Source: Flavobacteriales bacterium
Lineage (GTDB): Bacteria; Bacteroidota; Bacteroidia; Flavobacteriales_D; Sanyastnellaceae
DNA: 35,607 nucleotides
Assembly (NCBI GenBank): GCA_023264155.1
Contig: JALQTD010000005.1
Span: forward strand, 1 to 35,607
Direction of reading: 5' to 3'
Shown here: positions 7,933 through 18,934 of the stretch, one piece after another
Numbering within the stretch: position 1 is the stretch's first letter
Layout: the number at the start of each line of letters is the position of its first letter
Notes under the pieces: generated by a model
Databases searched by the model: none
Told to the model about the DNA's origin: nothing
What the model saw: only the letters and a program-made list of their open reading frames with translations
Program-made: the position numbers and the translations under genes

Positions 7933-9306
7933 ATGCGGTTCGTGGAGTTGGAGCTCCATCCGGACATCGAGGACGCCCTATTGGATATGGGGTTCGAAGA
8001 AGCAACCCCCATTCAGACATTGGCCATCCCCCCAGCCGTTCAAGGCAAGGACCTCATGGGCATCGCCCAAACGGGTACGGGGAAAACCGCGGCGTTCCTG
8101 CTGCCGGTCATGGACCGCATCATGGACCTGCCCGACAACGGCAAGGTCAAGGCGCTCATCGTGGTGCCGACCCGCGAGCTCGCCACGCAAATCGACCAGG
8201 CTGTGGAAGGCTTTGCCTACTACGCGAAGATCACGAGCTTGGCGATTTACGGCGGTGGAAGCGGGCACGAATTCACCCGTGAAAAGCAGGCCCTGACGAA
8301 GGGAGCGGACATCATCATCGCGACCCCGGGCCGCTTGTTGAGCCACCTCAACCTCGGATACGTCGACTTGTCCGAGTTGCAGACGCTCATCCTCGACGAG
8401 GCGGACCGGATGCTCGACATGGGGTTCTACGGGGACATCATGCGCATCGCCGAGCATTGCCGGAAGGAGCGCCAGACGTTGCTGTTCTCCGCCACCATGC
8501 CCGACCGCATCAAGGAGTTGTCGCGCACGTTGCTCAAGGACCCCGTGCAGGTGCAATTGGCCTTGTCAAAGCCCGCAGAGAAGATCAAGCAGGGCGCCTA
8601 CATCGTGTTCGATCACCAGAAGGACGAGGTGTTGGTCGACGTGCTGAAAGATCGCCAGGTGAAGAGTGGCATCGTGTTCACGTCGCGGAAGCGGACGGTT
8701 TCGCAGATCACGCGCGTGCTCAAGAAGGCGGGGATTGTGTGCGACCGGATTTCATCGGATTTGGACCAAAACGAGCGCGAGGAAGTCATGCTCGGTTTCC
8801 GCCAACGCAAGATCCCGATCCTCGTGGCCACCGACGTGGTGAGCCGCGGCATCGACATCGATAACATTGAGCTGGTTGTCAATTATGACGTTCCCCCGAA
8901 TGAAGAAGATTACGTGCACCGCATCGGCCGAACCGCTCGTGCCGACCGCGATGGCGAGGGCATCACATTGGTTTCGCCAGAAGACCAGTACCGCTTCAAG
9001 AAAATCGAAAAGCTCATCGAAAAGGAGGTGCCCAAGCTCGCCCTTCCGGAGCGCGTGGGACCTGGGCCGGAATACACGGGCAAGTCTTCGGGCGGCCGCG
9101 GTGATCGCGGTGGCCGTGGTGGCCGCTCCGGTGGCGGAGGCAAGCCCCGTTCGGGCGGCAATGGCGGTTCACGGGGAGGCGGCAAGTCCCGTGGTGGCGG
9201 CAAGGGCGATGGCACCCGCAACCACGCACCCAAGCAAGGAGAAGGTTCCAACAAGCCCCGCCGCAAGATGCGCCGCCGACACGACAACGGCTCCCAAGGC
9301 GCTTGA
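7933..9306 (+). CDS. DEAD-box RNA helicase, RhlE-like, with RGG-type tail
   Basis: An ATP-dependent RNA helicase of 457 residues, probably in ribosome assembly or RNA turnover, especially in the cold. The Q motif (EEATPIQ), motif I (AQTGTGKT), Ia (PTRELA), Ib (TPGR), II (DEAD), III (SAT), V (ATDVVSRGID) and VI (HRIGRTAR) all appear in order. The last 80 residues or so are a Gly/Arg/Ser tail (GRGDRGGRGGRSGGGG and similar) ending in a basic patch, PRRKMRRRH, typical of RNA-binding extensions. The start at 7933 (MRFVELELHPDIEDAL) fits the family N-terminus; an in-frame ATG at 7894 would add 13 residues. It is divergent from the PKD gene and followed by msrB 28 bases later. Confidence 0.95.
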   Translation: MRFVELELHPDIEDALLDMGFEEATPIQTLAIPPAVQGKDLMGIAQTGTGKTAAFLLPVMDRIMDLPDNGKVKALIVVPTRELATQIDQAVEGFAYYAKITSLAIYGGGSGHEFTREKQALTKGADIIIATPGRLLSHLNLGYVDLSELQTLILDEADRMLDMGFYGDIMRIAEHCRKERQTLLFSATMPDRIKELSRTLLKDPVQVQLALSKPAEKIKQGAYIVFDHQKDEVLVDVLKDRQVKSGIVFTSRKRTVSQITRVLKKAGIVCDRISSDLDQNEREEVMLGFRQRKIPILVATDVVSRGIDIDNIELVVNYDVPPNEEDYVHRIGRTARADRDGEGITLVSPEDQYRFKKIEKLIEKEVPKLALPERVGPGPEYTGKSSGGRGDRGGRGGRSGGGGKPRSGGNGGSRGGGKSRGGGKGDGTRNHAPKQGEGSNKPRRKMRRRHDNGSQGA

Positions 9307-9334
9307 TGCCAGCCCCTTGTTCGACCCCAGCATC

Positions 9335-9718
9335 ATGAACGAATCCGATTGGCTCGAAAAATTGGGCGCAGATGCTTACCGCGTCATGCGCCAGCAGGGC
9401 ACCGAGCGCCCGTTCACTTCGCCCTTTGTGCAGTGGGAAGCCGGCGGCGTCTACCATTGCAAGGGCTGTAACACGCCCCTGTTTCACACGGATCACCAAT
9501 TCGACGCCGGCTGCGGCTGGCCCTCGTTTGACCGGCCGGTGGAAGGCGCTCCCATTGTAACGCGCCTCGACAAGTCCCACGGCATGATCCGCACGGAAGT
9601 CCGTTGCGGAGCGTGCGACAGCCACCTCGGTCACGTTTTTCCCGATGGTCCGGCGGCCACGACAGGCGAGCGCTTTTGCATCAACGGCATCTGCCTGACC
9701 CGGCAGGAGGCCGAGTAA
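9335..9718 (+). CDS. msrB: Peptide methionine-R-sulfoxide reductase MsrB
   Basis: A 127-residue enzyme that reduces methionine-R-sulfoxide in proteins. Structural zinc cysteines are C42/C45 (HCKGC) and C91/C94 (RCGAC). The signature GCGWPSF (59-65) and the active-site segment GERFCING with catalytic C115 are present. C60 within GCGWPSF and C120 are possible resolving cysteines. No signal peptide is seen, so it acts in the cytoplasm. It starts 28 bases after the helicase stop, probably on the same transcript. The stop at 9716-9718 lies only 9 bases from the stop of the convergent Spy-like gene. That puts a repair enzyme for oxidised protein next to an envelope sigma-factor cluster, but on the opposite strand. 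Confidence 0.95.
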   Translation: MNESDWLEKLGADAYRVMRQQGTERPFTSPFVQWEAGGVYHCKGCNTPLFHTDHQFDAGCGWPSFDRPVEGAPIVTRLDKSHGMIRTEVRCGACDSHLGHVFPDGPAATTGERFCINGICLTRQEAE

Positions 9719-9727
9719 ACGGCCCGG

Positions 9728-10207
9728 TCAGCGCCGGGGTGTAGGCGGCATTCCGGGACGTCCGCCGCTGCGCTTCCGTGCTGCTTCGAGGATGCTGCGC
9801 CGGAATTCCTGTTCCATCCGAGGAAACTGCACCGTCCGTTCGGCGCCCAACACGGGCAGCAGCGCGCGCAGCAACGCGCTTTCCAAATCGACTTCGGCTT
9901 TGCGGTGCTCCGCAAGCTCGGCGATGAGGGCTTCGGCCTCGCGGTCGGTGGTGGGCCGCCGCTCGACCAAGCTCCGCATCGTGGCTTGGTGGTCCTGAAC
10001 CGCTTGTTGGTGCGCATCCACGATGGGCCAAAACAATTGCGCCTCCTCCGTGGTCAAGGAGAGCTGTTCTGAGAAAAAGGCGATGCGCAATTGCTGGAGC
10101 TTGGCCTGCTGTTCAGGAGACAGGCGCTCGTGCATCGGACCGGGCTGGGCCCACGCCGCAGCAGTGCTGAAAGCCACCGCAAAGAAGGTGAAGAGGAACG
10201 TTTTCAT
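9728..10207 (-). CDS. Periplasmic Spy/LTxxQ-like helical protein
   Basis: A 159-residue exported protein. The signal peptide MKTFLFTFFAVAFSTAAAWAQ justifies the ATG at 10207 rather than the in-frame ATG ten codons upstream. The mature part is nearly all helical, with a first helix RLSPEQQAKLQQLRIAFF and then LSLTTEEAQLFWPIVDAHQQ. This SP/T-EEAxxFWPIxDxxQ pattern resembles the Bacteroidota relatives of Spy/CpxP and the metal sensor CnrR/ZraP group. A second helical pair follows, and the C-terminus is basic and Pro/Gly-rich. It is the last gene of the sigma-factor cluster, 10 bases after the anti-sigma-like gene. It could be a periplasmic chaperone or a stress sensor that modulates the sigma factor; the sequence alone cannot decide. 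Confidence 0.6.
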   Translation of the reverse strand: MKTFLFTFFAVAFSTAAAWAQPGPMHERLSPEQQAKLQQLRIAFFSEQLSLTTEEAQLFWPIVDAHQQAVQDHQATMRSLVERRPTTDREAEALIAELAEHRKAEVDLESALLRALLPVLGAERTVQFPRMEQEFRRSILEAARKRSGGRPGMPPTPRR

Positions 10208-10217
10208 GGGGAGCGGA

Positions 10218-10514
10218 TTACATCGAGAGTTCATCAAGGGATTCCATTAGGTGATCGGGCCACTGGCCTGCTTCGAGCAGTTCGTATTCCGCCCATTCTA
10301 CCGGAAGCTCCTCCAACGGGGTAGCTTCCAACAAACAAGCGTAGGTTGTGCAGGGTTCATCCCCTTGCACGGCCCACCAGCTGCCCGCAAGGAGCAAGGC
10401 GAGACCGGCGGCCACGCTGTAGCGTGACCAGTGGGGTTTCCGGGTGGCGCGCAACACGTCCGCGCGCTGCTTGGCGAAGAAGCCATCGGGGGTGGTGAAA
10501 GGAGCAGGATTCAT
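10218..10514 (-). CDS. Small single-pass membrane protein, putative anti-sigma factor
   Basis: A 98-residue protein not recognised as a named family. The N-terminal cytoplasmic part carries FTTPDGFFAKQRADVL, which resembles the 'F-x-x-P-x-G-Y/F-F' motif at the start of many Bacteroidota anti-sigma proteins. A transmembrane helix (YSVAAGLALLLAGSWWAV) spans about residues 32-49. The periplasmic tail has two cysteines in CTTYAC, which could form a disulfide, and an acidic end (MESLDELSM). Its ATG overlaps the sigma factor stop as ATGA. Position, topology and length support an anti-sigma role; this is inference from context, since no zinc-binding HxxxCxxC motif is present. Confidence 0.55.
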   Translation of the reverse strand: MNPAPFTTPDGFFAKQRADVLRATRKPHWSRYSVAAGLALLLAGSWWAVQGDEPCTTYACLLEATPLEELPVEWAEYELLEAGQWPDHLMESLDELSM

Positions 10515-11086
10515 GTCAATTCGAGTGAGGCCGTGACGAAGGACTTGATTTTCTGGGCGGCGTGGTGGTACGAAGCTTTCAGGCTGCCTTCGGAGGTGCC
10601 AGTGAGCGTGGCGATTTGGCTGAATGGCATTTCCTCGAAATAACGCAGGTTAAAGACCTGCCGTTGCCGAGGCGGCAGCGCAGCAATGGCCGCGTGGAGC
10701 TGCAATTCCGCCTCATCGCCCGAAAAGAGCGCATCGGATTGCAAGGCCGCATGGGCCTGAGAAAAGGCGTCGTCGAAGGCAACCGTCCGGTCGCGTTTGC
10801 GCCGTTTCAGGGCGTCAAGCGATTTGCGGGATGCGATGGTGAACACCCAAGTGCTGAACGAGCTGCGTCCTTCGAACTGGCCCGCCGATTTGTACACTTG
10901 GATGAGCGTTTCCTGCGTCACATCGGCAGCGTCCTCGTGGTTGCCCATCATGCGCCGGCAGTGGGCGTACAGCCGCTCGTGCCACGCATCGAGGAACGCT
11001 TCAAACGCCCGCTCTTTTGCGCGCCGCCGGCCCCGTTGCAAGTCGGGAAGCCAAATCGGAATGGATGTGTCAGGGGATGCCGCCAT
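10511..11086 (-). CDS. ECF-type RNA polymerase sigma factor
   Basis: A 191-residue sigma-70 family ECF factor. Region 2 covers about residues 30-100 with GNHEDAADVTQETLIQVY and FSTWVFTIASRKSLDALKR. Region 4 spans about 133-183 with ALPPRQRQVFNLRYFEEM, then the helix-turn-helix FSQIATLTGTSEGSLKASYHHA. Regions 1 and 3 are absent, as in ECF factors. The linker between the two regions is moderately long (about 30 residues). It is followed by the putative anti-sigma gene (ATGA overlap) and the Spy-like gene, a standard layout for an envelope-stress regulon controlled by a membrane anti-sigma protein. It begins 31 bases after lgt, so basal expression may come from read-through of mtaB-lgt. Confidence 0.92.
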   Translation of the reverse strand: MAASPDTSIPIWLPDLQRGRRRAKERAFEAFLDAWHERLYAHCRRMMGNHEDAADVTQETLIQVYKSAGQFEGRSSFSTWVFTIASRKSLDALKRRKRDRTVAFDDAFSQAHAALQSDALFSGDEAELQLHAAIAALPPRQRQVFNLRYFEEMPFSQIATLTGTSEGSLKASYHHAAQKIKSFVTASLELT

Positions 11087-11117
11087 CGCCTTTCAGACGC
11101 AGCAGGGGCGTTTCGGT

Positions 11118-12317
11118 TTAACGTCCCGCCGGTTTTTTTGCGGCTTGTCGGCTGAGGAGGAACCACAGGATGCCCCCGCCGAGGAAGGTCAGCACCGCGA
11201 TGAGTTCCGCTTGGGTGAAGGTCAATCCCAGGGCGTGCATCTTCGCATTCACCCGGATTTGCTCGATGAGAAAACGTTCGAGGCCGTTGAAGATCAGGTA
11301 CAGGGCAAAGGTTTGGCCTGCAACCTGCAACCGCCGGCGCAGCGCCCACAGCACCCCGAAAATCACCACAGCCATCAGCGTTTCATACAACGGCGTCGGA
11401 AAAACCGCCGGCTGCAAGTACGTCCCAAAGCCCTCGAACACCGGCCACGGATCGCCCTCACCGATCAGCACGCCCACCCCGTTCACATTATTCGGATAAT
11501 GGTACGCCCACAACCAATCGGGCAACCAGCCCATCCACCCCGGCTTGGGCGCGTCGTTCACGATGCCCCAGTCCCCGTCCCCGCTCACTTGGCAGCCAAT
11601 CCGCCCGATGCCATAGGCCAAAATCAACGCCGGCGCCGCCGCATCGGCCAGCGGCAAGAACTTCATCCCCTTCTTCCGCGCCACCCACGCCACCGACAAG
11701 GCCCCCACAATCAACCCCCCGTAAATCGTCAGCCCGCCCAAGAAATTCGCCAGCGACGGCCGGGTAAAAAAGGCCACCAGTTCATCCGGGTACTCCAGCA
11801 GGTGGAACAGCTTCGCGCCCGCAATGCCCCCGACGGCCGCAGCCGTGACGATGCTCCCCACGTGCTCGGTCACGTGCACGGTGCGCTTGACCTGCTTCGG
11901 TTCCGGCAGCGCCTCCTTCGAAGCGGCATGATACCGCCAGCCGCCGAAAACCGCCGCCAGCGCGATGCCCCAACCGATGCTGCCCTCCCCGCTGAACAAA
12001 TGCGCCTGGGGCAAGCCGCCCCCGGCGAACAGCACGTCGGCGTTCAGGAGCAAGTAGACGAACTTCCATCCGAAGAGGAATCCCGTCAGGGCCTGCAATC
12101 CCACGTCCATCCACGACACCGGCGCCCCGATCACCACCGTTTCCTCGCCCGGACGGAACAGCCCTTCGCCCTCCTTGCGCCCGAGCTCCATTTTGATGAT
12201 GCGCGCGCCCACAATGAACGCCAAGGCGACAAAGAAGCCGAAGCTGTTGATGAGTTTCAGCCCCGGCAGGTCGAGGCCGAGGAGGTCGAGGAAGGCGAAG
12301 TAGAGGTTCGGATACAT
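11118..12317 (-). CDS. lgt: Prolipoprotein diacylglyceryl transferase
   Basis: Inner-membrane enzyme that transfers diacylglycerol from phosphatidylglycerol to the lipobox cysteine of prolipoproteins. The 399-residue protein is rich in hydrophobic segments and carries the Lgt signature AYGIGRIGCQVSGDGDWG (234-251), holding the conserved Arg/Gly residues. Earlier are the conserved glycines of GGLTIYGGLIVGAL and near the end LYLIFNGLERFLIEQIR. It is longer than E. coli Lgt (about 290) because of a cytoplasmic or periplasmic insert around residues 40-150, common in Bacteroidota. It starts immediately after the mtaB stop with no intervening base and probably shares its transcript. Confidence 0.93.
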   Translation of the reverse strand: MYPNLYFAFLDLLGLDLPGLKLINSFGFFVALAFIVGARIIKMELGRKEGEGLFRPGEETVVIGAPVSWMDVGLQALTGFLFGWKFVYLLLNADVLFAGGGLPQAHLFSGEGSIGWGIALAAVFGGWRYHAASKEALPEPKQVKRTVHVTEHVGSIVTAAAVGGIAGAKLFHLLEYPDELVAFFTRPSLANFLGGLTIYGGLIVGALSVAWVARKKGMKFLPLADAAAPALILAYGIGRIGCQVSGDGDWGIVNDAPKPGWMGWLPDWLWAYHYPNNVNGVGVLIGEGDPWPVFEGFGTYLQPAVFPTPLYETLMAVVIFGVLWALRRRLQVAGQTFALYLIFNGLERFLIEQIRVNAKMHALGLTFTQAELIAVLTFLGGGILWFLLSRQAAKKPAGR

Positions 12318-13619
12318 TCAAAGGAGGTTCAAAGCTCCGTGGACTGCGCCTTCGGAGATGCGTTCAAGTTGGACGGGCACAACGGCGTTTGCAGGGGCCA
12401 AATCCGCAGGCGCCGCCACCCGCACGTATTCGGGCGTATACCCAAACCGCAGCCCATCCTCCTCGGCCTGTTCGAACAAAACCGGCCGCTCCCGACCGAG
12501 AAACCGCTCGTAGTGCGCCCGCTGCTTTTTCAAACTGACCTGTCGCAACACCTTGTTGCGGGCCTGCCGCTCGGGAACGGGCACCACCTCGTCGATGCGC
12601 AGCGCCGTGGTGCGCGGACGTTCGCTGTACGTGAACACGTGCAAATACGAAACGTCCAAACCGAGCAAAAACTCCCGCGAGGCATCGAAGTGCGCTTGCG
12701 TCTCGCCCGGAAAGCCCACGATGACGTCGACGCCGATGGACGCCTCGGGCATCAAGCGCCGGATGTGCTCCACCCGCTCGCGGTACAAGGCCGTGCGGTA
12801 GCGCCGGCGCATCGCCGAGAGGATGGCATCGGAGCCGCTCTGGAGTGGGATGTGGAAGTGGGGCTGGAATTTGGCCGAACTCCCCACGAAATCGATGAGT
12901 TCATCCGTCAGCAAATTCGGCTCGATGGAACTGATGCGGAAGCGCTCCACGCCGTCCACCCGCTCGAGCGCCCGGACCAAATCGATCAGCCGCTCCTCTC
13001 CGCCCTTGCCAAAATCCCCGATGTTCACCCCCGTCAACACGATTTCCTTCGCACCCGCAGCAGCAGCGGCCTCCGCCTGCCGGACCGTGGTAGCCACATC
13101 GGCACTGCGGGACCGGCCGCGGGCAAGCGGGATGGTGCAAAACGCGCAGAAGTAGTCGCAGCCATCCTGCACTTTCAAGAAGGTGCGTGTGCGGTCGCCG
13201 CTGGAGAAGCCGGGGACGAAAGCCCGGACTTCCTTGATTTCGCCCACATGCGCCTCGCCCTGCGCCCGCTTGCCGAGGTCGTCCAAATGCGCAGTGAGGT
13301 TGAACTTCTCCTCCGCTCCAAGGACGATGTCGACGCCCTCGATGGCCGCGATTTCGGCGGGCTTCAATTGGGCGTAGCACCCGATGACGGCCACGAAGGC
13401 TTCGGGATTGCTCGACAGGGCGCGCCGCACGGCATTCCGGCATTTGGCGTCGGCTTGATCGGTGACGCTGCAGGTGTTGATGACCACGACATCGGGCGCT
13501 TCGTCGATGCCCACGCGCGCGTACCCGGCGTCGTGCAACTGCCGCGCGATGGTGGAGGTTTCGCTGAAATTCAGCTTGCACCCGAGGGTGTGGAAGGCCG
13601 CCTTGCCGGTGTGATTCAT
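12318..13619 (-). CDS. mtaB: tRNA t6A37 methylthiotransferase MtaB
   Basis: Radical-SAM enzyme that converts t6A37 to ms2t6A37 in tRNAs. The 433-residue protein begins MNHTGKAAFHTLGCKLN. It has the three N-terminal auxiliary-cluster cysteines C14 (TLGCKLN), C50 (NTCSVTD) and C81 (IGCYAQ), and the radical-SAM triad C154/C158/C161 in CDYFCAFC. KLN after the first cysteine and the shorter N-terminus favour MtaB over MiaB or RimO. Later motifs are FHIPLQSGSD and VGFPGET. The ATG at 13617-13619 is chosen because an upstream in-frame extension has no family similarity and runs into the divergent oxidoreductase gene. A TAACTTCG box at 13626-13633 lies just 6 bases upstream. It is head of the run with lgt and the sigma cluster. 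Confidence 0.92.
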   Translation of the reverse strand: MNHTGKAAFHTLGCKLNFSETSTIARQLHDAGYARVGIDEAPDVVVINTCSVTDQADAKCRNAVRRALSSNPEAFVAVIGCYAQLKPAEIAAIEGVDIVLGAEEKFNLTAHLDDLGKRAQGEAHVGEIKEVRAFVPGFSSGDRTRTFLKVQDGCDYFCAFCTIPLARGRSRSADVATTVRQAEAAAAAGAKEIVLTGVNIGDFGKGGEERLIDLVRALERVDGVERFRISSIEPNLLTDELIDFVGSSAKFQPHFHIPLQSGSDAILSAMRRRYRTALYRERVEHIRRLMPEASIGVDVIVGFPGETQAHFDASREFLLGLDVSYLHVFTYSERPRTTALRIDEVVPVPERQARNKVLRQVSLKKQRAHYERFLGRERPVLFEQAEEDGLRFGYTPEYVRVAAPADLAPANAVVPVQLERISEGAVHGALNLL

Positions 13620-13667
13620 CGGGGGCGAAGTTACGCTGAGAGCGGCATTTTGTCCGAACTTCGGCAG

Positions 13668-14786
13668 GTGGAAGCGTTTGTGGTCATCGGCAATGGAGCC
13701 GCCGGTCGGTCGGCGGCGGAGGAATTGGTCCGCGGCGGGGCCGGGCGGGTGGTGCTGATCGGGCGGGAGCACCCGGTGCCCATCAGCCGGCCGGGCTTGA
13801 TGTACCGGGCGATGGGGGCGATGCGCATCACCGATTTGGAGCTGGGGGTGCCGGCAGGGGTGGAGGCCGTTTTCGGCGAGGTGGTGGCGTGGTCACCGGT
13901 GCAGCGGTGGGTGGAATTGGCGTCGGGGCGGCGCCTGGCCTTCGACCACGTGATTTGGGCGGTCGGGGCGGTGGCTCGGCGGTTTCCCGGGCCGGTGACG
14001 GTGCCGGTGATGCACTTGCAGTCGCTCGGGGATGCCGAGGCCTTGGCGGGCGCGGAGGTGCGGCGGTGGGCCGTGGTGGGCGGCGGACTCGTGGGGGCGG
14101 AGCTGGCGGAGTGGGGGCGCGGCCGGGGGGCGGAAACGCATTGGGTGGTGCGCGAGGAGCGGTTGTGGGAGCGGTGGCTGCGGCGGGAGGAGTCGGTGGC
14201 CTTGGAGAAACGGGTTGCGCGCCATGGCGTGCGCTTGCACCTGGGCGTGGAGTTGGATGCGCTGGCGCCGGTGTTGCCCTTGCCGGGTGGGGAGGTGGCC
14301 GTGGATGCGGTAGGGGTGGCGATCGGTGTCGCGCCTGCCGGTTGGCCGGGGGAGTGGGCCGGGGCGTGGCCCGGGGTGCATGCGGTGGGGGATGCGGCTT
14401 CGTGGGACGGGGCCATGCGCGCGGGGAGGAACGTGGCGCTGCGGCTGACCGGGCGACCGGAGCTGCCGGAGCCGGTGGTGCGCGAGGAGCGGTTGCGCTG
14501 CTTCGACCGGGCCGTCACCGTCTTGGAGCGGGCGCAGCCGGTCGCGGAGTGGGGGTGGCTGGACGCTGCGCAGGCGCGGTCGTTGCGGGTGGGCACGGAT
14601 GCTGCTGGCCGGTGGGTGCGGGTGACGGCGATGGGGTGGAAGCTCCGGGCGAACCGCGTGGCGGAGGTGCTGCAGCAGGGGCTTTCCTCGGACCAAATCC
14701 CCGTACACCCGCTCTTCAACGAGCCCGAAGGCACCCGCCTCCCCGTGGATGCTTGGTCGCAACTTCAACCCCTTCCCGCACCATGA
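13668..14786 (+). CDS. FAD/NAD(P)-dependent pyridine-nucleotide oxidoreductase
   Basis: A 372-residue flavoprotein with two Rossmann folds. The FAD-binding start is EAFVVIGNGAAGRSAAEEL, and RPGLMYRAM follows. The second dinucleotide motif AVVGGGLVGAELAEWG (about 135-150) should bind NAD(P)H. GVHAVGDAASWDGA contains the second FAD-contact Gly-Asp. It resembles nitrite-reductase-type or rubredoxin-reductase-type enzymes but lacks the redox disulfide of dithiol reductases. There is no suitable ATG: GTG at 13668 places the start directly before the first strand, and TTG at 13650 is an alternative. The coding strand is unusually rich in GGG and GTG. Its TGA overlaps the ATG of the polyferredoxin gene, so the two products are probably partners in one electron-transfer complex. 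The electron acceptor is unknown. Confidence 0.85.
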   Translation: MEAFVVIGNGAAGRSAAEELVRGGAGRVVLIGREHPVPISRPGLMYRAMGAMRITDLELGVPAGVEAVFGEVVAWSPVQRWVELASGRRLAFDHVIWAVGAVARRFPGPVTVPVMHLQSLGDAEALAGAEVRRWAVVGGGLVGAELAEWGRGRGAETHWVVREERLWERWLRREESVALEKRVARHGVRLHLGVELDALAPVLPLPGGEVAVDAVGVAIGVAPAGWPGEWAGAWPGVHAVGDAASWDGAMRAGRNVALRLTGRPELPEPVVREERLRCFDRAVTVLERAQPVAEWGWLDAAQARSLRVGTDAAGRWVRVTAMGWKLRANRVAEVLQQGLSSDQIPVHPLFNEPEGTRLPVDAWSQLQPLPAP

Positions 14787-16060
14787 TCCGCGCCCTCGCC
14801 ACGGGCTGCGTTGCGGCCGCCTTCGCCTGGAACCTCGTCGCCAACCCCGGACTCGGCGCGGAGCTGCTCTGGCTCGCCGCGTGGATGGCGGCCGCCGCCG
14901 TGTTCGCCGCAGCGGAAGCCCGCCGCCTGCCCGGCTTCGCGCACCGCCCCCAAATCCGCCACGCCCACCCCGCCCTGCGCGGCGCCCTCGCCCTCGCACT
15001 GACTTCCGGTTACGCCGTGCTGTACTGGTGGCCGGAGGCCGTGGCGCCCGTCCTGCCGGCCGTGGACGACCTCAGCTGGTGGATCCGGGGGGTGGACGCC
15101 GACCGGTGGTGGTGGTATGGTTTGGCCTACACCATGCTGGTCCTCACCTCCGGCCTCATCGTTTTCGTGCGCTACCGCCACGATGCCTACCAACGCCGCC
15201 GGACCGCCGCCGTGACCGCCGCGCAGCTCGTTTTTGCCTTCCTGCTCCCGTCCATCCTGCAAGGCCTCGATGCGGAGCACGCCGCCTTGCACCGGGATTG
15301 GAAGCTGTTCTGGCCCCTCGATCACAGCTTTTTCGAGCCCTACCGGCTCGACGCCATGCGAAGCGGCGGCCTCCTCGGGCGCGCCTATTTCTTCCTCGGC
15401 CTGTTCCTCTTTGCGGTGGTCGCCCCGGTGGCCACGTATTTCTATGGCAAGCGCTGGTACTGCAGTTGGATTTGCGGTTGCGGCGGGCTGGCCGAAACGG
15501 CCGGGGATGCCTTCCGCACCTTGTCGTCGAGCACCCCGCGCAGCTGGCGGTGGGAACGGTGGCTGATTTACCCCATCCTCGCGTGGATCACCGTGGCCAC
15601 TGCCGTGGTGGTCGGCGGCTACCTCGCGGGGGTCGACCGCATCGGTCCCGTGGCCATCTACCCGGTGTTCACCCGGCCGTATGCGTTCGCCGTTGGCGCC
15701 TTGTTCAGCGGGGTCATCGGTGTGGGGTTTTACCCCTTGCTCGGGAACCGCATTTGGTGCCGATTCGGGTGCCCGCTTGCGGCGTACATGGGCCTTGTTC
15801 AGCGGTTTGCGTCGCGGTTCAAGGTTTCGACGGAGGCCGGCGGCTGCATCGCGTGCGGGGCCTGCACGCTGCACTGTGAGATGGGCATCGACGTGCGCGC
15901 GTATGCCATGAAGGGGGAGGACGTGCACCGGGCGGCGTGCGTGGGATGCGGGGTGTGCGCGGAGGTGTGTCCGCGGGATGTGCTGCGGTTGGAGTCCACG
16001 CCGGAGGGGCGGATTTGGCGGTTGCATCCGGAGGCCAAATCCCCTCCCAGCGCCAAGTAA
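14783..16060 (+). CDS. Membrane polyferredoxin (NapH/NosR-like 4Fe-4S protein)
   Basis: A 425-residue integral membrane iron-sulfur protein. About seven hydrophobic segments occur, for example residues 4-45, 70-85, 112-130, 145-160, 200-220, 260-280 and 300-320. Two membrane-adjacent cysteine motifs, WYCSWICGCGGLAE and WCRFGCPLAAYMG, resemble those of the NapH/NosR/RdxA group. The C-terminal soluble domain has two 4Fe-4S sites: C355/C358/C361/C365 (the proline that usually follows is replaced by Glu) and C386/C389/C392/C396 followed by Pro. It starts inside the stop of the flavoprotein gene (ATGA), which points to an NAD(P)H-FAD-FeS electron chain into or across the membrane. The terminal acceptor cannot be read from the sequence. 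I recall similar uncharacterised Bacteroidota proteins. Confidence 0.85.
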   Translation: MIRALATGCVAAAFAWNLVANPGLGAELLWLAAWMAAAAVFAAAEARRLPGFAHRPQIRHAHPALRGALALALTSGYAVLYWWPEAVAPVLPAVDDLSWWIRGVDADRWWWYGLAYTMLVLTSGLIVFVRYRHDAYQRRRTAAVTAAQLVFAFLLPSILQGLDAEHAALHRDWKLFWPLDHSFFEPYRLDAMRSGGLLGRAYFFLGLFLFAVVAPVATYFYGKRWYCSWICGCGGLAETAGDAFRTLSSSTPRSWRWERWLIYPILAWITVATAVVVGGYLAGVDRIGPVAIYPVFTRPYAFAVGALFSGVIGVGFYPLLGNRIWCRFGCPLAAYMGLVQRFASRFKVSTEAGGCIACGACTLHCEMGIDVRAYAMKGEDVHRAACVGCGVCAEVCPRDVLRLESTPEGRIWRLHPEAKSPPSAK

Positions 16061-16129
16061 ACGCCCCTCCTGTGCGTAATTGTTGGTGGCTTTCGTAATT
16101 TGGCCTGAACTACCTGCAAATTGAAACGC

Positions 16130-18934
16130 ATGAAGCACCTTTCCACCTTCGGCCTGCTGCTGCTTACCGCTGCCGCATCGGCCCAATCTTTTACGAACAG
16201 TTCGGCGCTGCTGCCGGGCACGTACAACAGCGGCAACTGCGTCGGCTTCACGGACGTCGACAACGACGGCTTCGATGACGTGGTGGTCCTCGACCAAAGC
16301 CGCGACCTCATCGTCCTGTATCAGAACGGCGACGGCACCTTCACGGAGGTGGCTTTCGGCCAAGTGTCCAACGCCGGCCAGTGGGGCATGTGCATCGCCG
16401 ATTACGACAACGACGGGCACAAGGACGTGTTCAGCGGTGGTTCGTACGACGGGGTGCACGTGTGGAACATCGACGGCCCCGGGGTGTCTTCCGTCATTCC
16501 CATGACGAACAACCAACTCTTCATGCAGGCGTGCAACTTCGCCGACATCAACAACGACGGCCAGCTCGACGTTTTTGCCTGCCACGACGATGCCCTGTCG
16601 CGGATGTGGCGTGGGGAAGGGGAGTCGCTCATCTTCGACGCGGCGTTGATGCCGTTGGATGATTACGCGCTCAATGGCTACCCCGGCAACGATCACAGCG
16701 GCAACTACGGCACGGTTTGGTCCGACTTCGACAACGACGGTGACCTCGATTTGATGATTGCCAAGTGCCGCCAGTTCATCGGGGATCCGCAGGATCCACG
16801 CCGCATCAATCAGTTGTGGGTGAACGACGGCTCGAACAACTACACCGAGGACGCGGAGGCGCGCGGCCTGGTACTCAATGAGCAGAGCTGGACCGCCGAC
16901 TTCGCTGACGTGGACAACGACGGAGATTTCGATTGCTTCATCACGAATCACAGCACGACGATGAAGCTGATGCTCAACGATGGCGCGGGATATTTCACGG
17001 ATGTCACTCCAGGCAGCGGCCTCGATGTGAGCGGATTTGTTTTGCAGGCCAAACTCGCCGACTTCGACAACGACGGCTACAACGACGTCATCATCGGTGG
17101 CGGAGCCGACGGCTACTTCCACAACAACGGCGACCTCACGTTCACCCCCATGGATGCTTTCCCCGCGAACGACGAGATGCACAGCTTTGCCATTGGCGAT
17201 GTGAACCGCGACGGGACGCTCGATGTCTATGCGAGCTACGGCAATGGGTACAACTCGGCCGACAATGCGAACCCGGATCGCCTGTGGGTGAACGACGGCA
17301 ACGACAACCACTGGATTGCCTTCGATTTGCAAGGCATCGCCTCCAACATGGACGCGGTGGGAGCGAAGGTGACCATCACCGGGGCCTTCGGGACCCAAGT
17401 GCGCGAGGTGCGCAGCGGCGAGAGCTACGGCATCACGAACATGTTCACCTGCCACTTCGGCTTGGGAGCGAACGAAACAGTGGACAGCGTGGTCATCGAT
17501 TGGCCGAGCGGCTTCCAATCGACCATTGCCAATCCTGAAATCGATGTGTACCACAACGTCCTCGAAGCGCCCTGCATGACGGAGGTGGCCATCGACGCCA
17601 CTTCGTTGCAGTTCTGCGCCGGGGGGTCGGTGGAATTGACGGTCAGCGGCGACTTTGCGACCTACGCGTGGTCTGCCGGTGCGGGCGACGCCGCGACGGC
17701 GACCATCGATGCACCCGGCACATACAGCGTGACGGTGACCGATGCCGACGGGTGCATGGGCGTGTCGGAGCCGGTGACGGTTACCGAGGTGACCGGCGAA
17801 GCGCCGGTGCTGATGTACGAAGGCAGCACGCTGTTGTGCGACGGCGACATCTTCGAGTTGAGCATCGCGAACGAAGGCGACTGGACGTGGTCAACGGAGG
17901 CCACTGGCACCGTCTTGGCGGTGACGGAATCGGGGGTGTACAGCGCGAGCGGCACGGACATTTGTGGCAACGACTTGGTGTCTGACGTGGTGGAAGTTAC
18001 CTTCTTCCCGGTACCGGATGCGCCTGTTGTAGCGGGGGCAACGGTGGATGCCGGGGGCAGCGTCGTATTGGACGGTGGCGTGAGCACCCTGCTGTGGTAC
18101 GACGACGAATTCGCAACGGAACCGATTGCCGAGGGCGCGACGTTCACCACACCAGCTTTGGATGCAAGCACGACCTACTGGGTGGAGGATGTGGCCGTGT
18201 CTGCCGCGGAGCAATTCACGGGCGGCGAAACGGAGATGGACATGGGCCAGTACCACACGAATGATGCATACTACATGCTGTTCGACGCTTACTCGGCCAT
18301 GCAGCTCGTGGAAGTCACGGTGTTTGCTAACGGAGGGGGGGTGCGCCAAATCGAATTGCTCGACGAGCAAGGAGCCACGCTCTTCGTAGGCGATTTCGAC
18401 CTCACCGACGGCACAAACGTCATTGAATTGGGCTGGTCCGTTCCTGCCGGTACGAATTACGGCTTGAAGTGCAATGCGGACAACCCGCAGTTGTGGCGGG
18501 ATGGCAACGGGTCTGATTTGAGCTACCCGTATGCGCTCGGCGATTTGGGCAGCATCACGTCAAGCACGGTAGCTGGCGCGAATGCCCAGAACTACTACTA
18601 CTTCTTCTACAACTGGGTGGTGTCGGCGCCGACGACGGAATGCCCGTCAGACCGCGTGCCAGTGACCGTGACCGTTGTGGGGGTCGAAGAGTGGGCTGCA
18701 GCCATCGGGTTGGAGGCTTTCCCTAACCCGGCCAGCGAGCAAGTGCAATTGCGTTGGAACACACCGGAGTTGCTGGATGTTGAAGTCACGGATGCCGCGG
18801 GCCGCGTGGTGTGGAGCCGCACGCAAGGCGCCTCGGGAGTCGTGATTCCCGTCGCAAATTGGGACGCAGGCTGGTACCAAGCCACGTTGCGGACGTCGGC
18901 CGGTGCGACCTCCCTGCAATTGCTGGTGCAGTGA
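16130..18934 (+). CDS. Secreted FG-GAP/UnbV repeat protein with T9SS type A domain
   Basis: A 934-residue exported protein. The signal peptide is MKHLSTFGLLLLTAAASAQ, so the ATG at 16130 is preferred over a TTG at 16121. Seven calcium-type FG-GAP/VCBS motifs run through residues 40-370: VDNDGFDD, YDNDGHKD, INNDGQLD, FDNDGDLD, VDNDGDFD, FDNDGYND and VNRDGTLD. These suggest a seven-bladed integrin-like propeller. An ASPIC/UnbV domain follows (DAVGAKVTITGAFG...REVRSGESYG). Then come Ig-like segments and a C-terminal type A sorting domain: EAFPNPASEQVQLRW, DAAGRVVW and a closing YQATLRTSAG segment. It is a T9SS cargo with a likely adhesive or binding role. A strong terminator lies downstream, so it appears monocistronic. 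An imperfect -7 box TAATTTGG sits at 16096-16103. Confidence 0.9.
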   Translation: MKHLSTFGLLLLTAAASAQSFTNSSALLPGTYNSGNCVGFTDVDNDGFDDVVVLDQSRDLIVLYQNGDGTFTEVAFGQVSNAGQWGMCIADYDNDGHKDVFSGGSYDGVHVWNIDGPGVSSVIPMTNNQLFMQACNFADINNDGQLDVFACHDDALSRMWRGEGESLIFDAALMPLDDYALNGYPGNDHSGNYGTVWSDFDNDGDLDLMIAKCRQFIGDPQDPRRINQLWVNDGSNNYTEDAEARGLVLNEQSWTADFADVDNDGDFDCFITNHSTTMKLMLNDGAGYFTDVTPGSGLDVSGFVLQAKLADFDNDGYNDVIIGGGADGYFHNNGDLTFTPMDAFPANDEMHSFAIGDVNRDGTLDVYASYGNGYNSADNANPDRLWVNDGNDNHWIAFDLQGIASNMDAVGAKVTITGAFGTQVREVRSGESYGITNMFTCHFGLGANETVDSVVIDWPSGFQSTIANPEIDVYHNVLEAPCMTEVAIDATSLQFCAGGSVELTVSGDFATYAWSAGAGDAATATIDAPGTYSVTVTDADGCMGVSEPVTVTEVTGEAPVLMYEGSTLLCDGDIFELSIANEGDWTWSTEATGTVLAVTESGVYSASGTDICGNDLVSDVVEVTFFPVPDAPVVAGATVDAGGSVVLDGGVSTLLWYDDEFATEPIAEGATFTTPALDASTTYWVEDVAVSAAEQFTGGETEMDMGQYHTNDAYYMLFDAYSAMQLVEVTVFANGGGVRQIELLDEQGATLFVGDFDLTDGTNVIELGWSVPAGTNYGLKCNADNPQLWRDGNGSDLSYPYALGDLGSITSSTVAGANAQNYYYFFYNWVVSAPTTECPSDRVPVTVTVVGVEEWAAAIGLEAFPNPASEQVQLRWNTPELLDVEVTDAAGRVVWSRTQGASGVVIPVANWDAGWYQATLRTSAGATSLQLLVQ

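Follow-up and report, generated by a model that had tools for sequence, protein, structure and literature searches.

A NapH-related membrane polyferredoxin and its overlapping NAD(P)H flavoprotein gene: a conserved, probable electron-transfer module of Bacteroidota that may serve a glycolipid/arsenosugar-type pathway

The stretch of DNA analysed here (the window; 35,607 nucleotides) is the whole of contig JALQTD010000005.1 in the Flavobacteriales bacterium assembly GCA_023264155.1, and corresponds to contig C380 of its own genome, G000. Its forward strand carries two overlapping genes, one for a flavoprotein resembling ferredoxin reductases (FP) and one for a membrane polyferredoxin related to NapH (PF). 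The two genes form a genuine, conserved module whose components are those of an electron-transfer chain, and they represent a new variant of the NapH-like systems; searches of the open-licence literature turned up no paper on the pair. Its features are given below, with PF compared in alignments of 22 rows (A1) and 40 rows (A2), FP in alignment A3, and both proteins as AlphaFold2 (AF2) models.

13668 to 14786, + strand: FP, FAD/NAD(P)H ferredoxin-reductase-like flavoprotein, 372 amino acids (aa); Pyr_redox_2 match, Foldseek match to BphA4, adjoins PF in most relatives.
13680 to 13706, + strand: FAD-binding GxGxxG stretch VVIGNGAAG, residues 5-13 of FP, seen in the sequence and within the conserved N-terminal block of A3.
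14064 to 14159, + strand: NAD(P)-binding stretch VVGGGLVGAE ... WVVREE, residues 133-164 of FP; Pyr_redox match, A3 and BphA4 alignment.
14783 to 16060, + strand: PF, NapH-related multi-helix membrane polyferredoxin, 425 aa; Fer4_5 and Fer4 dicluster matches, AF2 helices.
15461 to 15481, + strand: CX3CXC motif C227-C231-C233 (CSWICGC) of PF, replacing a first CX3CP; unchanged throughout A1 and A2.
15758 to 15775, + strand: CX3CP motif C326-C330-P331 of PF; invariant in A1 and A2.
15845 to 15880, + strand: first 4Fe-4S site of PF, C355-C358-C361-C365, followed by Glu366 (CEMGIDVR); cysteines invariant, Glu366 invariant in A2.
15938 to 15973, + strand: second 4Fe-4S site of PF, C386-C389-C392-C396-P397; invariant in A1 and A2.

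FP starts at GTG 13668, with TTG 13650 as an alternative, and its first ATG comes only at codon 45; the GTG and TTG codons are both conserved in the sister species (L031). The stop codon of FP and the start codon of PF share the ATGA at 14783-14786. The original prediction, made from the sequence alone, had described an FAD/NAD(P)H oxidoreductase without an ATG start whose gene overlaps that of a membrane protein as ATGA, and the frames, the lack of an ATG start and the overlap were all borne out. Since the two genes each have a third-position GC of 0.87 and are retained in the sister genome (PF at ~75% identity, FP at 56-58%), we regard them as real coding genes. A 1,329-codon open frame (10797-14786) was also observed, which opens within the lgt/mtaB region and extends across FP; upstream of 13650 this frame is antisense to the lgt/mtaB genes and is probably an artefact of GC-rich DNA. 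Genes were called with a simple longest-open-reading-frame (ORF) script, which fails where sister loci are rich in GC (L031 and the window, and arsS in L133).

FP matched Pyr_redox_2 (2.3e-26) and, over residues 133-198, Pyr_redox (8.9e-10). Its AF2 model has a mean pLDDT (per-residue model confidence) of 88.6, and the top Foldseek matches were the BphA4/TodA reductases (best E value, 3.6e-27; TM score, ~0.77), with which it shares the fold and the two nucleotide-binding motifs. FP contains a single cysteine and is therefore not a disulfide reductase. Its model places FP among the NAD(P)H ferredoxin reductases of the BphA4 type, with the two-dinucleotide flavoprotein fold and without a redox disulfide. 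It scored well under the curated equivalog cut-offs (AndAa, 66 of 650 bits; HcaD, 63.1 of 450 bits). Arg162, invariant in A3, aligns approximately where BphA4 has an acidic residue, hinting at a possible preference for NADPH. The partner differs as well, being a membrane protein with two [4Fe-4S] sites where BphA4 and TodA have a soluble ferredoxin. Two stretches present in relatives, KPYEDWFW and ANFDPEFY, are absent from the window copy.

PF matched Fer4_5 (2.3e-8) and the Fer4 dicluster models. Across A1 and A2, every row retains 13 of its 14 cysteines, namely, C227-C231-C233, C326-C330, C355-C358-C361-C365 and C386-C389-C392-C396, and both 4Fe-4S sites have the form CxxCxxCxxxC. These matches and motifs confirm the membrane protein with NapH/NosR-like cysteine motifs and two 4Fe-4S sites that had been proposed. 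The Glu in place of Pro after C365, singled out at the same time as unusual, is indeed present, but it occurs in 40 of 40 rows of A2 and is thus a signature of the family rather than an oddity; the exception in A1 is a Pseudoalteromonas fusion protein, which has His. As judged from the alignments, the unusual point of PF is C233, which turns the first membrane motif into CX3CXC.

The charges of the PF loops (e.g., five K/R and one D/E at 128-141), taken with the AF2 helices, point to a cytoplasmic location of the C-terminus and of the invariant cysteine motifs. The AF2 model of PF has a mean pLDDT of 66 and gives no usable geometry at the cysteine sites. A fold search with it returned no match with an E value below 0.001, which carries little weight given the weak model, and the sequence matches of PF to solved structures cover the ferredoxin domain only (among the best 60 of 80). 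Selenocysteine had been suspected in PF from in-frame stops (TGA in G146, G218, G222, G253 and others). The idea was dropped, the stop in G146 being an ordinary one just past the ferredoxin domain, with none inside the matched part in G218, G222 or G253.

NapH-like proteins that have an NAD(P)H reductase of their own occur widely across Bacteroidota and neighbouring groups, with at least 588 confirmed PF loci, and the co-occurrence of the two genes is near universal. Among 120 sampled relatives, PF was searched at an E value of ≤1e-3 and found in 46 (47 matches, of which the weak one in G076, 3e-11, was dropped), and FP was present in 44 of these 46, the other two (G025 and G116) being fragmentary genomes. 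The best 80 of the 588 loci, a choice biased towards close relatives, were used as named loci. In 73 of the 80, FP lies on the same strand ≤400 bp upstream of PF, with a 4-nucleotide overlap in 23; of the remaining seven, five lack FP in the locus and in the other two the genes stand 0.8-1.5 kb apart. Twenty-six genomes in which FP was apart, missing or doubtful were rechecked. FP was found in 21, adjoining PF in five (G086, G149, G202, G300 and G356) and elsewhere, beyond the locus or on a different contig, in 16. The five without FP comprise two fragmentary genomes and three with a longer PF frame (811-910 aa), which are probably of a fused type.

Fusions were also found directly. A 784-aa protein of Pseudoalteromonas plasmid pPBSW1 combines Pyr_redox_3 with a PF part, and it was the one record returned by a search of plasmids for PF. 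Pyr_redox_3 plus Fer4_5 fusions were identified by Pfam in L051, L142, L144 and L153 and by similarity to L051 in L141, L145 and L154, the Bacteroidota fusion proteins being 777-830 aa long. Against the FP profile the fusions scored only 24-40 bits (L142 and L051) or nothing at the thresholds used, and so they carry a different NAD(P)H flavoprotein. That another flavoprotein is fused to PF supports the view that PF is fed by a flavoprotein. The overlap could conceivably reflect nothing more than a compact genome, with FP and PF unrelated, and the two genes are indeed not adjacent in family f13 (G088, G109, G113 and others) and in five Cytophagales-type named loci. However, the adjacency in 73 of 80 loci, the presence of FP elsewhere in the 16 genomes and the fusions make this highly improbable. 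The coupling of flavoprotein and polyferredoxin put forward in the original prediction is supported. The separate occurrence in relatives that it had named as refuting applies only to position, the genes being physically apart in f13 and some other lineages, although both are retained there. In G109, the lone FP gene adjoins a DUF547 gene.

The closest named families of PF are the NapH models. PF shares with NapH and NapH/MauN proteins several helices, a Fer4_5 region with CX3C motifs and two C-terminal [4Fe-4S] sites, but it reached only 68.6 of 213.05 bits (TIGR02163) and 66.2 of 234 bits (NF007013), far from the cut-offs. Two CX3CP motifs are a NapH trait; PF has the second of these and both 4Fe-4S sites, whereas its first motif is CX3CXC, and in addition it has a NAD(P)H flavoprotein of its own. 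The NapH-like membrane part is also common to the flavinylated NosR/PceC proteins, but their FMN_bind domain had no match in PF (E value, 0.1) or in the longer homologues L047 and L079 (E value, 0.01). In keeping with the NapH kinship, the pair might be a NapGH-like NAD(P)H:quinone/quinol module that exchanges electrons with menaquinone through PF, the pathway neighbours described below being incidental. NapH-like proteins are modular, with no known reaction for most of them (PMC8238504), which leaves room for such a role. The missed cut-offs and the lack of FMN_bind argue against it. No NapA, NapG or NapC partner was present among the 16 window proteins scanned (FP, PF and 14 others), and the recurrent annotated neighbours in relatives belong to other families, though a cytochrome c gene lies near PF in four named loci. 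With the rhodanese and arsS linkage described below standing far above the bioB control, we consider a quinone module unlikely.

In relatives, the pair recurs beside genes for glycosyltransferases, a rhodanese, DUF547 proteins and arsenosugar-related proteins. Neighbours were counted in the 80 named loci, many of which have less than 10 kb of flank. The most frequent were the glycosyltransferases GT2a (36 loci), GT2b (33) and GT87 (24), DUF547 (26, +2), an Fnr-like regulator (19) and the rhodanese (18), which is NF045521 (186 bits against a cut-off of 145); rarer were TIGR04282 (7), TIGR04283 (5), arsS (2) and arsM (1). ArsS, ArsM, TIGR04282 and TIGR04283 were over their cut-offs in L127, L135 and L077, and the Pseudoalteromonas copies of TIGR04282 and TIGR04283 were below them. 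Gene orders were taken from loci selected for having arsS near PF. These were arsS-TIGR04282-FP-PF (L149 and L150, and L151 with one intervening ORF); FP-PF-110aa-arsS-GT2b (L152); fused PF-TIGR04282-DUF547-110aa-arsS-GT2b (L153 and L154); and GT87-GT2a-GT2b-PF-FP...DUF547...ArsM-PNP-TIGR04282-arsS (L155, L157 and L159), with L156 having DUF547 beyond arsS. In several relatives (L149-L159), FP-PF lies inside or beside ArsS/ArsM arsenosugar clusters. The 222-aa ORF called next to arsS in L132 is probably in the wrong frame.

A further set of neighbours bears on another possibility, in which the pair donates electrons to a membrane di-iron hydroxylase or other oxygenase that decorates a lipid, PF acting as a membrane-anchored ferredoxin. 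BphA4-type reductases feed oxygenases via an iron-sulfur protein, in agreement with the titles of the matching PDB entries, and the BphA4 fold of FP favours such a role. A protein resembling FA_hydroxylase (PF04116), with three His boxes, lies near PF in L047, L093, L118, L126, L158, L159, L163, L164, L167 and L168, where the L167 protein served as the reference and L093 and L158 are the same place in one genome. The other searched loci have no such protein in their flanks, except for a weak match in L052 (26% identity). Moreover, nine of the ten loci are outside the order of the window, and none was seen in the window itself; on balance, an oxygenase partner appears rather unlikely.

The linkage to arsS was examined in a sample of 296 genomes from the phylum. 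The PF profile gave 136 matches at an E value of ≤1e-3; the 71 stronger than ~1e-80 were counted as PF positive and 65 were dropped. arsS was found in 121 of the 296 genomes, comprising 48 of the 71 PF-positive and 73 of the 225 PF-negative genomes. Of the 48 with both genes, which include G000 with the two on different contigs, 22 have them on one contig and 14 have their starts ≤25 kb apart, compared with a chance expectation of ~0.7 (50 kb per 3.5 Mb). The 14 linked genomes fall into four families (7, 4, 2 and 1) with several gene orders, so that physical linkage to arsS is recurrent in relatives. The control gene bioB, present in 150 of the 296 genomes and 18 of the 71 PF-positive ones, shared a contig with PF in 10 and came no nearer than ~150 kb. 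Among the 120 relatives, PF was present in 46, arsS over its cut-off in 40 and both in 35; arsS thus occurred in 35 of 46 PF-positive and 5 of 74 PF-negative genomes, with G107, whose arsS consists of two pieces below the cut-off, counted as lacking it. No tight PF-arsS linkage was seen in these 120, the nearest case being G034 at ~32 kb.

The rhodanese NF045521 (E value, ≤1e-35) was found in 27 of the 296 genomes (25 over the cut-off), some of them without arsS, and all 27 were PF positive. It shares a contig with PF in 19 and lies within 25.1 kb in 14. In G259, G271 and G299, which lack arsS, the rhodanese, TIGR04282, TIGR04283 and DUF547 genes are still beside FP-PF, and the FP-PF neighbourhood thus exists without arsS. 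We also observed a TIGR04282-like transferase together with rhodanese and DUF547 genes in L166, L167, L168 and L173, and a TIGR04283-like gene in L166-L168, in genomes without arsS over the cut-off; these TIGR04282/TIGR04283-like calls come from BLAST to reference proteins and not from the curated models. The "arsenosugar" in the names of these two families may be too narrow. PF-positive G193 and G228 have neither arsS nor any ArsM-like match better than 1e-6.

The position of the pair in relatives, often adjoining such genes, may indicate a role in a glycolipid/arsenosugar pathway rather than in respiration. We give an even chance to the proposal that FP-PF, as an NAD(P)H-FAD-[4Fe-4S] module, works for a glycolipid/arsenosugar-type pathway at the membrane. 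Cytoplasmic FP would oxidize NAD(P)H through its FAD and pass the electrons to PF, a dedicated acceptor with two cytoplasmic [4Fe-4S] clusters. The five-cysteine site of PF (CX3CXC plus CX3CP) would lie at the inner face of the membrane, and PF may there hand the electrons to a hydrophobic substrate or carrier. The step would be a reduction in a glycolipid pathway, with arsenosugars as a further product of that pathway in many species. We infer the cofactors, the cytoplasmic side and an electron route from NAD(P)H via FAD and [4Fe-4S] to a membrane substrate.

Several observations weigh against this proposal. arsS lies within the fetched flank in only 2 of the 80 named loci; in the phylum sample, arsS is missing from 23 of the 71 PF-positive genomes, and 73 genomes have arsS without PF; and nine genomes positive for both the rhodanese and PF have no arsS. 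The sampled genomes are related rather than independent, and nominal p-values for the arsS and rhodanese linkage overstate it. In the window's own genome, arsS (over the cut-off) is on another contig (C333, locus L132, ~8187-10692, - strand), beside a purine nucleoside phosphorylase gene and unlinked to the pair, and nothing of an arsenosugar cluster was seen in the window. The rhodanese NF045521 was not found in this genome. ArsM (NF038099) was not over the cut-off there, nor in the other 14 genomes of that scan, arsS-positive ones included, and so this carries little weight. As the genome is 87.6% complete, its absences are soft. Finally, the ferredoxin domain of the PF model is below a pLDDT of 50. 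Because 23 of the 71 genomes lack arsS, arsenic is not obligatory for FP-PF, and arsenosugar synthesis as an obligatory link was rejected on this count, together with the neighbourhood kept in G259, G271 and G299 and the findings in G193 and G228.

In a more specific version of the proposal, FP-PF would be dedicated, within a membrane lipid pathway, to the reduction of organoarsenic or chalcogen compounds. An intermediate (trivalent arsenic or a persulfide) delivered together with the rhodanese would bind at the invariant five-cysteine site and be reduced by NAD(P)H, so that ArsS and TIGR04282/TIGR04283 could build arseno- or thio-sugar lipids. We regard this version as improbable.

The arsenic genes also bring to mind a CcoG-style metal or metalloid reductase, in which FP would supply the electrons for a reduction of Cu(II) or an As(V) species by PF. 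PF shares with the cupric reductases CcoG/RdxA/FixG a pair of [4Fe-4S] sites in a membrane protein, and the GID-R that follows its first cluster resembles a CcoG motif. CcoG is a membrane-bound Cu(II) reductase carrying two tetranuclear Fe-S clusters (PMC7558416). Besides the arsenic genes near PF in some relatives, SCO1/SenC (copper/oxidase assembly) and cytochrome c genes lie 6-9 kb from PF in L064, L065, L072 and L107 (domains checked in L107). However, the CcoG model was not among the best 25 of the 53 NCBIfam families matching PF, many PF-positive genomes have no arsS, SCO-type neighbours occur in only 4 of the 80 named loci, and neither cco nor other copper genes were seen in the scanned proteins of the window. 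Such a reductase is accordingly quite doubtful.

To our knowledge, the later steps of the arsenosugar/glycolipid pathway have not been worked out. If the pair serves these clusters, it would provide a testable redox step of that pathway, and the rhodanese NF045521, named only for nearby glycosyltransferases, would belong with FP-PF. As read from gene neighbourhoods, the glycolipid/arsenosugar link would be a useful addition, although it does not in itself name the acceptor.

The same neighbourhoods bear on what the original prediction had said of the surroundings. It had noted no gene for nitrate, nitrous oxide or oxidase assembly nearby. This holds for the 16 window proteins scanned, none of which showed such a domain, but not for the four relatives with SCO1/SenC 6-9 kb away. 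A "self-contained" module likewise describes the pair on this contig but not in the family, with its glycosyltransferase, rhodanese, DUF547 and arsenosugar neighbourhood. The suggestion that the pair perhaps feeds a periplasmic reductase gained no support, as no such neighbour was found and the cysteine motifs of PF are predicted to be cytoplasmic.

Some further neighbours were observed. The wider neighbourhood of PF in L064 also contains a UPF0093/CopD-like gene, and a small protein of the carboxymuconolactone decarboxylase family (AhpD-like) adjoins arsS in many clusters (L152, 10236-10568; L155, 16208-16543; others). In the window, PF is directly followed by one gene recognized by domain scan and by its homologues in relatives:

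16121 to 18934, + strand: secreted FG-GAP/UnbV_ASPIC protein with a type IX secretion system (T9SS) tail.

A homologue of this protein is not found directly after PF in L032, L036 and L037 but occupies that position in L031, L035, L041, L043, L049 and L165.

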